A stretch of DNA of 36,072 nucleotides from Candidatus Methylomirabilota bacterium. GTDB taxonomy: Bacteria; Methylomirabilota; Methylomirabilia; Methylomirabilales; Methylomirabilaceae. Below are positions 31,045 to 35,842 of this stretch, piece after piece; the stretch's first letter is position 1; each line of letters begins with the position of its first letter. Made by a program: the position numbers and the translations under genes. Where the stretch lies: positions 1 to 36,072 of the forward strand of contig JAGWQH010000067.1 in NCBI GenBank assembly GCA_028870115.1, given 5' to 3'. Below the pieces are notes generated by a model. The model did not search any database. It saw nothing but the letters and a program-made list of their open reading frames with translations, and was not told the origin of the DNA.

Positions 31045-31896
31045 TCACCAGCTTCCGCTGGCGCCGCCGCCTCCGCTCGATCCGCCGCCGAAGCCACCGA
31101 ATCCGCCAAAGCCTGAGGAGCCGAAGCCGCCACCTGACCAGCCGCCGCTGTAGGGGCCGATCGGAAACCAGATGAAGCGATTGCGGAATCCGCGCGGGTC
31201 GCGGCGACGAAATGACCGCTCGCTTGCCATGCTGATGGCAATCAGCCCAACCAGCAGGAGTAAGAAGAGCAGGACGGGAGTAGTCTGAGAAACCAGGTGT
31301 ACTGATCCGGTTCTCCGTTCGGGAACCGGCGCCTGAAGGCGGTACGAGTCGGGCGATGGGATCTGAATCTGCTTGTGCCTAGCGATGATCTCGACGATCC
31401 GGGCGATGCCCGCCTCGATCCCTTCGGCGAATTGGCCCTCTCGGAAGCGCGGCGTGATCGTATCGCGGATGATCTCTCCGGCCAGTCCGTCAGGGATCGT
31501 TTCCTCCAGACCGTAACCCACCTCGATCCGAAGCCGCCGTTCTGTCGGAGCGATCAGCAGCAACATCCCTTCGTCCTGCCCCTTCTTGCCGATCCCCCAG
31601 GCAGTAAACGCCTCGACAGCGACCTCTTCGACCGACTGTCCACCGAGGTTCGGGATGGTCACGACAGCGATCTCGACCCCCGTTTGTCGATTGACCTCTG
31701 TCAGGAACAGCTCCAGACGATGCTTCGTGGAGGCATCGAGCAGACCGGCGAGATCGCTCACCCACCCTTCGGGCTTGGGGAGGGAGATGCCGGCGGAGGG
31801 CGATCCGGAGAACAGGCAAAGAGCGAGCGCGCAGTAGAGTGGAAGCCAGCGATAGATGAAGTGAGAGGGGGACGAGAGGCGACGGTCAGGCGGCAT
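31045..31896 (-). CDS. TPM-domain membrane protein (YgcG-like)
   Basis: A 283-residue protein: signal peptide (YCALALCLFSGSPSAG), then a TPM domain (WVSDLAGLLDASTKHRLELF, GVEIAVVTIPNLGGQSVEE, and the family motif GMLLLIAPTERRLRIEVGYG), a membrane segment (PVLLFLLLLVGLIAISMA), and a Gly/Ser-rich tail, the usual arrangement for YgcG/TPM proteins. TPM proteins are thought to act with LemA and membrane proteases in quality control. The ATG at 31896 overlaps the upstream gene by 11 bp. LemA itself lies at 20945. Confidence 0.92.
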   Translation of the reverse strand: MPPDRRLSSPSHFIYRWLPLYCALALCLFSGSPSAGISLPKPEGWVSDLAGLLDASTKHRLELFLTEVNRQTGVEIAVVTIPNLGGQSVEEVAVEAFTAWGIGKKGQDEGMLLLIAPTERRLRIEVGYGLEETIPDGLAGEIIRDTITPRFREGQFAEGIEAGIARIVEIIARHKQIQIPSPDSYRLQAPVPERRTGSVHLVSQTTPVLLFLLLLVGLIAISMASERSFRRRDPRGFRNRFIWFPIGPYSGGWSGGGFGSSGFGGFGGFGGGSSGGGGASGSW

Positions 31897-32638
31897 CGAT
31901 AAGCGCAACCACCCGCTCCCACTCTTCAATGAGGCGGGAAAGGATCTGCCTGATATCGGCGGTGGCCAGTCGGATCGATCCACGCTTGTGAGCGAGGAGC
32001 GTAGTCAAGAGGTCCCGATCGAGATGATGTTGTGAAGCTGCCGATTCAATGACCTCCATATCGGTGGTCGGGACAGGCGTCCCGTCCAGACGTATGATGG
32101 CGCGAAAGACCGGGAGGAGGGAGGTGATGGCGCCCGCAAGGAGGCCGTCAAGCGCCTCTCCGCGATCCGACAGCTCCAGGTATCCTTGCCGCAGTCGGAT
32201 CAGCACGCCATGGAGCTCTCGTCGGCATTGGGCCCGAAGATGCTCGGGTGACACCACGATGGCGGAGAGTGCGTGAGAGCCACACAGTAGGCGACCGGAC
32301 TCCTGGATATCCGACACCTCAAGAGGGAAGGCGCGGGCGGCGAGCCGGAGCTCGCCTTCCGTAAGGAGCAGGGGGACGATCTTGAGCCTCCGCCATCGGC
32401 GAAGCTGCTTCGCCGTCTCCGCCAACTCCTCCAGCCTGACCGATTGCAAGATAACCAGCAGGTTTACATCGGATCGGCCGGGGATGAAATCGCCACGAGC
32501 AGCGCTTCCATAGAGCCAGACCGAAACAAGTTGCCGATGGTACACCCGGTTGAGGGAATCGACAACTGCCTGGAGTTGTCCCTCTAATGTTGCCCCCAAG
32601 CCGGCCGACGGGATTGTCTTATCCATCCCCCATCCCAT
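31886..32638 (-). CDS. Nucleotidyltransferase-fold protein with altered active site
   Basis: A 250-residue protein. The N-terminal MNT-type fold has Gly44-Ser45 in WLYGSAARGDFIPG and then RSDVNLLVIL: the pattern is Asp57-x-Asn59 instead of Asp-x-Asp, so one metal ligand is replaced. The remainder (about 120-250) is helical (LRAQCRRELHGVLIRLRQGYLELS, ILSRLIEEWERVVALI) and could resemble a HEPN-like domain, but I see no R-x4-H motif. It sits in an operon between a lipoprotein and a TPM gene, an odd place for this fold. Function unknown; possibly a non-catalytic binding protein. Confidence 0.85.
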   Translation of the reverse strand: MGWGMDKTIPSAGLGATLEGQLQAVVDSLNRVYHRQLVSVWLYGSAARGDFIPGRSDVNLLVILQSVRLEELAETAKQLRRWRRLKIVPLLLTEGELRLAARAFPLEVSDIQESGRLLCGSHALSAIVVSPEHLRAQCRRELHGVLIRLRQGYLELSDRGEALDGLLAGAITSLLPVFRAIIRLDGTPVPTTDMEVIESAASQHHLDRDLLTTLLAHKRGSIRLATADIRQILSRLIEEWERVVALIDAA

Positions 32639-32644
32639 GGTAGG

Positions 32645-33286
32645 TCATGACGCACGCCGGACCTCGAACTCGAACAGTAGCAGTTGCTCGGCCGAGCCGA
32701 TATAGAAGGAGCCGACCTCAAGGATGACCGCTTTGGCGTCAGCATCAAGTGGTGGGAAGAGGAGCAAACCCTCCCGGTCGAGTTTCGGAGGCACAACCAA
32801 CAAGTTGGTCAACACGGTTTCGTCCAGTGCTCGCAAGGCTTTTGCCGACTCGCGATGTTCGGAAAAGAGACTGTACAGCTCATCGTACGAGAGCGCTGCC
32901 GATCGGCGATCCTGCTGGTCCACCAACACGGCCTGGCCCGGATCGAAATTGACGCGATCTCGTCCCACGTTCTGGATTCGGAGAATGAAGGCGAGAAGCC
33001 CCTTGGTTTTCTTCGGAAGTATTTTAAACGGGTTCAGCAGGGTTGGTCGCCGCGCGTAGTAGGCGTCAAGGCCTTTCTCCGTCAGAGGCTCAACGGTGAC
33101 CGTCGCTCCGCCAAGGGTGGCAATGATCAGGTCACCCTGAGCCTGTAACGTGGGTTGACGCTGTGGCCCAGGGCGCAGCATCAACCCGGACTTGCCGCTC
33201 GGACCTAAGGCGCACGCGGTCAGCGTTATCACGATCAGGAGAGAAAAAAAACGGGCTACAGGCCCGTTGGCAAATAGAGGTTTCAC
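32645..33286 (-). CDS. Putative lipoprotein
   Basis: A 213-residue protein with an N-terminal signal segment (FFSLLIVITLTAC) ending in a lipobox-like LTAC, so the cysteine is probably lipidated and the protein anchored in the periplasm. No conserved domain is recognised; the body has beta-rich stretches (GLLAFILRIQNVG, FYIGSAEQLLLFEFEV). The GTG start at 33286 lies 24 bp after htpX and has no ribosome-binding site, so translation may depend on coupling. A terminator-like hairpin with a T-run spans codons 7-15. Downstream genes are 6 bp or less away. Confidence 0.8.
   Translation of the reverse strand: MKPLFANGPVARFFSLLIVITLTACALGPSGKSGLMLRPGPQRQPTLQAQGDLIIATLGGATVTVEPLTEKGLDAYYARRPTLLNPFKILPKKTKGLLAFILRIQNVGRDRVNFDPGQAVLVDQQDRRSAALSYDELYSLFSEHRESAKALRALDETVLTNLLVVPPKLDREGLLLFPPLDADAKAVILEVGSFYIGSAEQLLLFEFEVRRAS
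33244..33268 (-). terminator. Intrinsic-terminator-like hairpin inside the lipoprotein gene
   Basis: On the minus strand AACGGGC-CTGTA-GCCCGTT (33268 to 33250) is followed by six more T residues. It forms a 7-bp GC-rich stem with a 5-base loop and U-tract, the classic intrinsic terminator form. It starts 43 bp after the htpX stop and falls in the 5' end of the next gene, so it may end most htpX transcripts while letting some continue. Confidence 0.75.
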
Positions 33287-33310: not shown

Positions 33311-34159
33311 TCAGGCCACAAGCGCTCGCAGGCGGGCAATACGCTCTTCGACGGGCGGGTGGGTGGAGAAAAGCTTGAACAGTACGTCCCCGCGAAGTGG
33401 GTTCACGATGAACAGGTGTGCGGTGGCGGGGTTGGCCTCCATAGGCAGACGGTTGGCGCCGACCTCAAGCTTTTGAAGGGCTGAGGCCAAGGCATACGGC
33501 TTGTGGGTCAGTCGAGCGCCCGATTCGTCGGCCTGAAATTCCCGGGACCGCGAGATCGCCAGTTGGATGAGCGTCGCCGCGATAGGGGCCAGGATGGCCA
33601 GGAACAGAAATCCCATGGCGCCTCCCCCGCGATCATCGTCATCGCGGCCCCCGCCGCCAAAGATCGGCATCCACATCGCCATCCGGGCCAGCATCACAAT
33701 GACGCCCGCGAGTGTTGCCGCGATAGTGCTGATCAGCGTATCGCGATTGCGCACGTGGGCCAGTTCATGCGACAGCACACCCTCCAACTCCTCCTCATTG
33801 AGAATCCGCAGGATTCCCTCAGTGGCGGCGACGGCTGCATGTTCGGGGTCGCGCCCGGTCGCAAAGGCGTTGGGGGCCTCGGTGGGAAGGACGTAGATGC
33901 GGGGCATCGGCATATGGGCTCTCAGCGTCAGCCCATGGACAATCCTGTGCAGCTCCGGCGCTTCAGCCTCGCTGACAGGCTGGGCCCTGTACATCGCGAG
34001 GACGATCCGGTCCGAGAACCAATAGGACCCGAAGTTCATCAGGAAGGCCATGACGAAGGCGATGCTCATCCCTCGGCTCCCGCCAAAGTAGCCTCCGATC
34101 AGGATCAGTAGGCCGGTCAGCAGCCCCAGCAGGGCTGTGGTCTTCAACGTATTATTCAT
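33311..34159 (-). CDS. htpX: HtpX, membrane zinc metalloprotease
   Basis: A 282-residue M48 protease of the inner membrane. The zinc site [10 protein letters not shown] has His131, Glu132 and His135, and the third ligand Glu lies in the EFQADESGA motif. Two N-terminal membrane segments ([37 protein letters not shown]) and two more in the middle are present. HtpX degrades misfolded membrane proteins in parallel with FtsH. The ATG at 34159 follows AAGGAGGGTG; the ORF's upper ATG at 34180 is part of this ribosome-binding region. It is the first gene of the htpX-lipoprotein-nucleotidyltransferase-TPM unit. Confidence 0.95.
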
Positions 34160-34228
34160 GGTGCGTTCACCCTCCTTCATTCAACGCGGAGATACGCTTA
34201 TTCCGCGCTGAAATTATACTCCTTCTAT

Positions 34229-34303: not shown

Positions 34304-34693
34304 TTATGGGTGAACCCGGCGGAGCAGCCCGCGTCTTCTGACCGGCACAAGTCCCTCTTCCTCGCGGCCCTCCCAGTGTTTTATCTCGGCATCGAATTGT
34401 TCGGCCATTGCCCGCAGCAGTTCATTCATCTGGCGCTGCATCCTGTCCATCCGATCCCGCATGTTCAGGATGACCTCGACTCCAGCCAGATTCACGCCGA
34501 GCTCCTTGGTCAGCCGCAGGATCAGTTCAATTCGCTCCACATCCTCTTGCGAATAGACCCGCGTATTGCCCTCGGTGCGGGCCGGCTGAAGGAGCCCTTC
34601 CCGCTCATAGACCCGGAGGGTCTGCGGGTGGATATCGAACATCTCGGCCACGATGCTGATCGAATATCGACGTCGCCGCTGCCCCACTTTCAT
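34304..34693 (-). CDS. hspR: HspR, MerR-family heat-shock repressor
   Basis: A 129-residue MerR-type regulator: YSISIVAEMFDIHPQTLRVYEREGLLQPARTEGNTRVYSQ is the winged-helix DNA-binding head, followed by a helical coiled coil (VILNMRDRMDRMQRQMNELL) for dimerisation. HspR represses dnaK/dnaJ-type operons through HAIR sites and is sensitive to heat, often in a complex with DnaK. It follows dnaJ by 36 bp, the usual dnaJ-hspR order. No clear HAIR site (CTTGAGT-N7-ACTCAAG) was found upstream of dnaJ, but the operon's true start may be outside the window. Confidence 0.92.
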   Translation of the reverse strand: MKVGQRRRRYSISIVAEMFDIHPQTLRVYEREGLLQPARTEGNTRVYSQEDVERIELILRLTKELGVNLAGVEVILNMRDRMDRMQRQMNELLRAMAEQFDAEIKHWEGREEEGLVPVRRRGLLRRVHP

Positions 34694-34729: not shown

Positions 34730-35842
34730 TTACTTCCAGATTGCCCGCCTTGGATCCTCCGGATGCAGGCGTCCCAACTCCCGGAACAGTTCTTGCGATC
34801 GCGTATCGAGGTTCCGGGGTAGAACAATCTTGATGGTGACGAACTGATCACCCCGTCCCGAGCCTTTCAGGTGCGGCACCCCCATGTTGCGGAGACGAAA
34901 GACCTGCCCGCTGCTCGTCTCCGGGGGGATTCGCATCGAAGCCTTCCCGTCTACAGTTGGGACCTCAATCTTCGCCCCCAGCGCGGCCTCAGCCACGGAA
35001 ATCGGCACTTCGCAGTAGATATTATCCCCCTTCCGCTCGAACAAGGGGTGAGGGCGGACACGGGTCACGATGTATAGGTCCCCGGATGGACCCCCGAGTC
35101 GCCCCACATGGCCTTTTCCCTGGACCCTGACATTCGATCCATTTTCCACGCCCGGCGGGATCTTCACGGCGATTCGTTCGGTCTTGAGTACCGTCCCTGC
35201 TCCATGACAGGCGTTGCACAGGGATGAGGGTAGCTTGCCGGTCCCACGGCACCTGGAGCACGCCTGGTGTCCGCCAAACAGTCCAGGTTTCCCTCGCACC
35301 CGCCCGCTGCCTTCGCAGGCAGGACAGGCGTAAAACTTACCTCCTGTCCCGGCCCCTGTGCCCGAGCAGGAGGGACAGGGGACGCGCCGCTCGAGGCTGA
35401 TCTCGGTGGAGAGGCCCCGGACTGCGTCTTCGAACTTCAGGTCAACGGCGTAATGGAGATCTTCGCCCTTGGATGGCCCGGTCTGGGCCTCCTGCCCATG
35501 TCGGCCAAGCAGGTCAGAGAAGAGATCTTCTATCCCGCCAGGGCCCCCGAGGTCAAACTGGGTGAAGTCGAACCCACCCGGTCCCGCTCCGGGCTGCCGG
35601 CCTGCCTCGTGCCCCGCGCCAAAGACCTGGTGCCCGAACTGGTCATACTGCCCGCGCTTGGCCGGGTCACTCAAGACATCGTACGCCTCGGTGATCTCCT
35701 TGAACTTCGCCTCGGCCGCTTTGTTGTTGGGGTTGACGTCAGGGTGGTACTTCCTGGCCAGGCGCCGGTAGGCGTGCTTGATCTCTTTGTCCGAGGTGCC
35801 TCTGCGGACGCCAAGGACTTCATAGTAGTCGCGCTTATTCAT
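34730..35842 (-). CDS. dnaJ: Chaperone DnaJ
   Basis: A 370-residue type I DnaJ. The J domain has the HPD motif at 33-35 (KYHPDVNP), followed by a Gly/Phe-rich linker, a zinc-finger domain with four CxxCxGxG repeats ([32 protein letters not shown]) and the substrate-binding C-terminal domains. It stimulates the DnaK ATPase and delivers substrates. The ATG at 35842 has AAGGAG about 13 bases upstream, rather far. It is followed by hspR; no dnaK is in the window. Confidence 0.96.

Follow-up and report, generated by a model that had tools for sequence, protein, structure and literature searches.

A conserved terminator-like hairpin within the signal-peptide codons of a lipoprotein gene behind dnaJ-hspR-htpX in Methylomirabilis

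In Escherichia coli, the rpsU-dnaG-rpoD operon has a strong internal terminator after its first gene, which lowers expression of the next gene; it is intergenic, unlike the element described here. Internal stem-loops of Clostridia terminate with efficiencies of 20.7% to 96.1%, the highest belonging to the type with more than five U residues, which gives more than 90% termination, and such stem-loops set transcript ratios; low-U internal terminators with long stems are described as well (PMC9045158). The terminators of clostridial ABC importer operons resemble the arrangement proposed here, in that a hairpin separates an abundant gene from the next one downstream and is partly read through. In contrast, those terminators are intergenic (PMC9045158), whereas the Methylomirabilis element lies inside the downstream open reading frame (ORF) and doubles as signal-peptide codons.

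Two further systems have a terminator within or close to coding sequence. The brfA gene of Bacillus subtilis has a Rho-independent terminator within its ORF, which serves regulation, and the ORF on the transcript lacks a stop codon, as would be the case here. The brfA terminator, however, lies late in its ORF, and the product is a nearly complete protein that is a target of trans-translation (PMC6881298), while here the hairpin and T-run fall in codons 7-15 of 213. Because of this position, and because the lipoprotein has no family match, it is not considered a non-stop rescue factor of the brfA/arfA type. The E. coli tR2 construct W48 has its terminator behind an upstream gene and 30 bp downstream of a start codon, which is comparable to the present locus, and its termination is largely insensitive to translation, with a loss of only about 10% of efficiency. 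Its upstream reporter drops to roughly half, an effect attributed by the authors to the missing stop codon of the ORF. In the same source, maximum efficiency, about 0.9, is reached by terminators that lie more than 30 bp past a stop codon (PMC4824070). W48 is an artificial construct and has no conservation, unlike the Methylomirabilis element. A literature search, mostly of papers outside subscription, gave no report of this element.

The element was found in a stretch of 36,072 nucleotides, contig JAGWQH010000067.1 of assembly GCA_028870115.1 (the window). Bacteria of the genus concerned, Methylomirabilis, oxidise methane. The window's relevant features are as follows.

34730..35842, minus strand: dnaJ, first gene of the conserved run, named from its translation, without a family search.
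34304..34693, minus strand: hspR, a MerR-type heat-shock repressor gene (NF047375 HspR, 111.1 bits, cut-off 105).
33311..34180, minus strand: htpX, an M48 protease gene (PF01435; NCBIfam HtpX over its cut-off).
32645..33286, minus strand: lipoprotein ORF of 213 amino acids, with a predicted signal peptide in codons 1-24 and the lipobox Cys25.
33284..33286, minus strand: GTG start codon of the lipoprotein ORF, kept in 14 of the 15 genus loci.
33250..33268, minus strand: candidate terminator hairpin, with 5' arm 33268-33262, loop 33261-33257 and 3' arm 33256-33250.
33244..33251, minus strand: T8 tract (U-tract), of which the first two T are also paired in the stem.
33212..33214, minus strand: lipobox cysteine codon (LTAC), Cys25 being invariant in 25 aligned proteins.

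A terminator-like hairpin in the first lipoprotein codons had been proposed in a sequence-only reading of this DNA, and it is confirmed. The minus strand at 33268..33250 reads AACGGGC-CTGTA-GCCCGTT, then TTTTTTCTCT. It has the GC-rich stem and short loop of an intrinsic terminator (7 bp and 5 bases in the window; up to 10 bp in same-genus relatives), with a U-tract directly 3' of the stem. Counted from the htpX stop, the GTG lies 24 nt and the stem 42 nt downstream, and the stem begins 18 nt past the first base of the GTG. The T8 tract is read in frame as Phe13-Phe14, TTT TTT. The MFE of the window hairpin is -10.9 kcal/mol. In the comparison of loci, where it is given -10.3 kcal/mol, it is the weakest in the genus and has lost its innermost pair, compared to -12.6 to -17.5 kcal/mol in the 14 same-genus relatives. 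The fold of its stretch has z = -1.6 against shuffles, 13 of 200 being equally stable, and a consensus scan of 6 kb found two terminator-like sites compared to 4.3 expected from shuffles. In the window sequence alone, the hairpin is within chance expectation, and the evidence beyond chance is comparative.

The hspR gene lies upstream of htpX in the same run of genes, and the usual order in relatives is dnaJ-hspR-htpX-lipoprotein, as far as the examined stretches extend. The lipoprotein gene has htpX directly upstream and co-directional in 28 of the 30 loci read; in the other two, L024 and L031, the locus contains no htpX match. The element is thus located between co-directional genes that are kept together, as is an internal operon terminator. 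Nucleotidyltransferase and TPM genes lie 3' of the lipoprotein gene in the window (31045-32638). The sequence-only reading had joined them with the lipoprotein gene in one unit, which does not hold: they follow in only 3 of the 15 genus loci (the window, L003 and L016; L010 ends early downstream in this count) and are outside the conserved unit. A search of the window for an HspR-type HAIR palindrome gave one far-away match with three mismatches, which equals chance expectation.

The lipoprotein is present in 31 of 60 genomes searched, including the genome of the window. It occurs in 15/15 genomes of the genus, 16/20 in the rest of the order, and 0/25 in the rest of the class. No locus was obtained from one of these genomes (G025), leaving the 30 that were read. 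The protein alignment omits L008, the stretch of which is identical to that of L007, as well as L017 and L030, whose ORFs run off the locus; Met1 is invariant in its 25 proteins, which were cut at the chosen starts. A search of Pfam and NCBIfam found no family at E 0.001. The predicted structure (pLDDT 85.9) has as its best PDB match YjhA of B. subtilis (3cfu), which is weak (E 4.6e-4, TM 0.34-0.51). DUF4352 gives weak matches in 4 of the 25 lipoproteins (E 0.011 or worse), and LolB chains reach E 0.8 at best against the lipoprotein profile. All three similarities are weak, and no function is drawn from the fold.

The gene had been described as having no ribosome-binding site. There is indeed no Shine-Dalgarno motif of the GGAG/GAGG/AGGA/AAGG type before the GTG in the window; this is nothing special, however, since a sample from another genome of the genus has 118 such cases among its 382 called gene starts. 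No start codon 3' of the hairpin in the window would leave a signal peptide. A start codon within the loop was considered (ATG in L004, GTG or TTG in some loci), but it is not conserved, the window having GTA and many loci CTG.

The hairpin is present in all 15 genus loci, with -10.3 to -17.5 kcal/mol. Its distance from the htpX stop is 40-42 nt, and the first 8 nt 3' of the stem include 6-7 T. The distance from start codon to stem is 16-18 nt in 14 of them and 7 nt in L011. In L011 (genome G003), GTG is replaced by GTA and one T is missing; the frame is shifted upstream, where an ATG stands in the new frame, and the hairpin is kept. This change could be an assembly error. An alignment of the 14 distinct genus sequences shows double-sided changes at 7 of 7 outer stem pairs and paired cells at 99.1%, which none of 500 shuffles equals, and slid controls are far lower. 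L008, identical to L007 in this stretch, was excluded from the alignment, the pair count, and the synonymous profile. On the tree, the changes amount to few events. The clade formed by L002, L003, L006, and L007 has undergone an A-U/G-C exchange, and the stem was completely rewritten once or twice, in L015 and L016; L014, the sister of L015, has the common form. The paired changes thus rest on few independent events, which weakens the covariation case.

Synonymous sites provide a second line of evidence. The first 22 codons of each locus were recoded in 300 synonymous versions with codon usage taken from the genus loci, and only 0-3 of the 300 recodings matched the observed terminator score at each of the 15 genus loci. 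Synonymous differences are 0.12 at alignment codons 13-18 compared to 0.41 in the whole gene. At both phenylalanines (alignment columns 14 and 15), the codon is TTT in all 26 cases from 14 distinct genus loci, even though TTC is the commoner codon in long ORFs of the sample from G005, a complete genome of the genus (785 TTT : 1239 TTC). L015 and L016 encode different residues here and still form the stem. Judged from these sequences, the hairpin and U-tract are under selection at the RNA or DNA level. The codons TCT CTC CTG that follow the T-run (33236-33244, minus strand) are also unusually conserved synonymously in the genus.

The rarity of the element was assessed in 400 kb of G005, sampled as 20 stretches, one of which was picked to hold the locus. 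Strict intrinsic terminators are few in this genome: the scan found 13 such sites in the 400 kb, among which the locus ranks fourth. Among 382 gene starts the locus is at the top, with a score of -22.3, the next being -15.7. The gene calls come from a simple caller that placed the lipoprotein start at an ATG in the loop; it was moved to the GTG for this ranking, whose 383 rows for 382 genes contain the lipoprotein gene twice. The element is not a dispersed repeat or terminator motif, as the pattern tried occurs once in G005, at this locus, and 0 times in the genome of the window, where the stem departs from the pattern. Rho was found in 20 of 21 genomes searched.

Outside the genus, all 13 loci, from four other families, have a hairpin of unrelated sequence 14-34 nt after the htpX stop, at about -18 to -36 kcal/mol. 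It is inside the ORF in 12 of them; L018 has its hairpin and T-run before the lipoprotein ATG and was excluded from the recoding tests for this reason. The U-tract is often weak, with 1-6 T among the 8 nt that follow the stem. Eight of the 12 loci fall below 5% against synonymous recoding and four do not, and in a control on codons 41-70 of these genes none of the 12 has an excess. As for the terminator score, four of the 12 loci have no terminator that can be scored, and L025, a further one, does no better than its recoded versions. The weak or unscoreable U-tracts suggest that the hairpin may do something else outside the genus.

The preferred reading, with a probability of roughly 0.6, is that the hairpin and U-tract are the intrinsic terminator of a dnaJ-hspR-htpX heat-shock operon, placed in the signal-peptide codons of the next gene, and that the lipoprotein is made from read-through. 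Most transcripts, presumably shared by the three genes, would end at the hairpin and U-tract, and a small share probably continues into the lipoprotein gene. The lipoprotein ORF would read straight through the terminator, with the stem as part of the n-region and the U-tract as the Phe-Phe with which the hydrophobic part of the signal peptide begins. The signal peptide spans the hairpin and the window has no suitable later start; the lipoprotein would therefore come only from read-through, and it and whatever lies 3' would be made only by the minority of polymerases that pass. If this is correct, the purpose would be one of dosage, the lipoprotein being held at a low fraction of HtpX, also upon induction of the operon. 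The E. coli data on terminator distance make a fixed partial terminator likelier than a translation switch, with the proviso that coupling in this phylum may differ.

Such a switch is nevertheless the best of the alternatives, though an unlikely one. An early ribosome on the lipoprotein ORF would cover the 5' arm and let the polymerase pass, so that lipoprotein expression would follow its own initiation, perhaps supplied by ribosomes that finish htpX 24 nt upstream. The kept distance from start to stem (16-18 nt in 14/15 genus loci) would suit such an attenuator, as would the short distance from htpX stop to start; in several loci of other families the start overlaps or touches the htpX stop, which favours coupled re-initiation. 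On the other hand, the comparable early E. coli terminator lost only about 10% to translation (PMC4824070), and L011 has a start-to-stem distance of 7 nt and no GTG. The one antiterminator pairing that was tried, GGYCTG/CGGGCC, which would join the htpX stop region to the 5' arm, shows no covariation and is broken in L015 and L016, which speaks against the attenuator of the sequence-only reading. That reading had let translation coming from htpX open the hairpin, which is not supported: the stem lies 40-42 nt past the htpX stop in the 15 genus loci, and E. coli terminators at such a distance are at full strength (PMC4824070). A milder effect of translation on the hairpin may exist, since transcription-translation coupling in this phylum may differ from that in E. 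coli. To our knowledge, this coupling has not been studied in the phylum.

Another reading, somewhat less probable still, is that the hairpin serves above all to protect or process the htpX mRNA at its 3' end, with the U-tract being secondary. The stable hairpins of the 13 outside-genus loci, often followed by few T, are consistent with it, and internal stem-loops also influence the stability of the upstream transcript (PMC9045158). In the genus, however, the T-run is kept at synonymous sites, and protection alone would not need it. The view that constraint on the signal peptide (Arg/Gly/Ala codons and the Phe run) yields a hairpin by chance could draw on the overlap of conserved residues with the element and on the 13 of 200 shuffles that fold as well. 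It is largely refuted by the recodings that rarely reach the observed score, the paired changes, the stem formed despite other residues in L015 and L016, the synonymous sites, and the lack of excess at codons 41-70, and is thus highly improbable. Equally improbable is slippage of the polymerase giving shifted lipoprotein products, even though a stem-loop with a T-run is a site type known for it and L011 lacks one T and uses another frame upstream, as in 14 of the 15 genus loci no slippage is needed for an intact frame.

The preferred reading of an embedded terminator has a possible further consequence, which we regard as doubtful. The ended transcripts would consist of htpX and a lipoprotein ORF without a stop codon, and ribosomes that initiate on it would reach the 3' end, call for trans-translation, destabilise the htpX mRNA, and lower HtpX. 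SmpB and tmRNA exist in the genus: 11 of the 14 same-genus relatives have both, and in several of these the two are adjacent. Neither was found in the genome of the window, the stated completeness of which is 99.99%. The presence of both in these relatives argues against a loss of trans-translation and makes an assembly gap the likeliest explanation.

Across the genus, one stretch of DNA would thus carry two codes, a terminator and a secretion signal, with Phe-Phe being the U-tract. The locus would also offer a natural and conserved case for testing the behaviour of a terminator just after a start codon. If the non-stop consequence is true, the arrangement itself would couple an envelope lipoprotein to a membrane protease.
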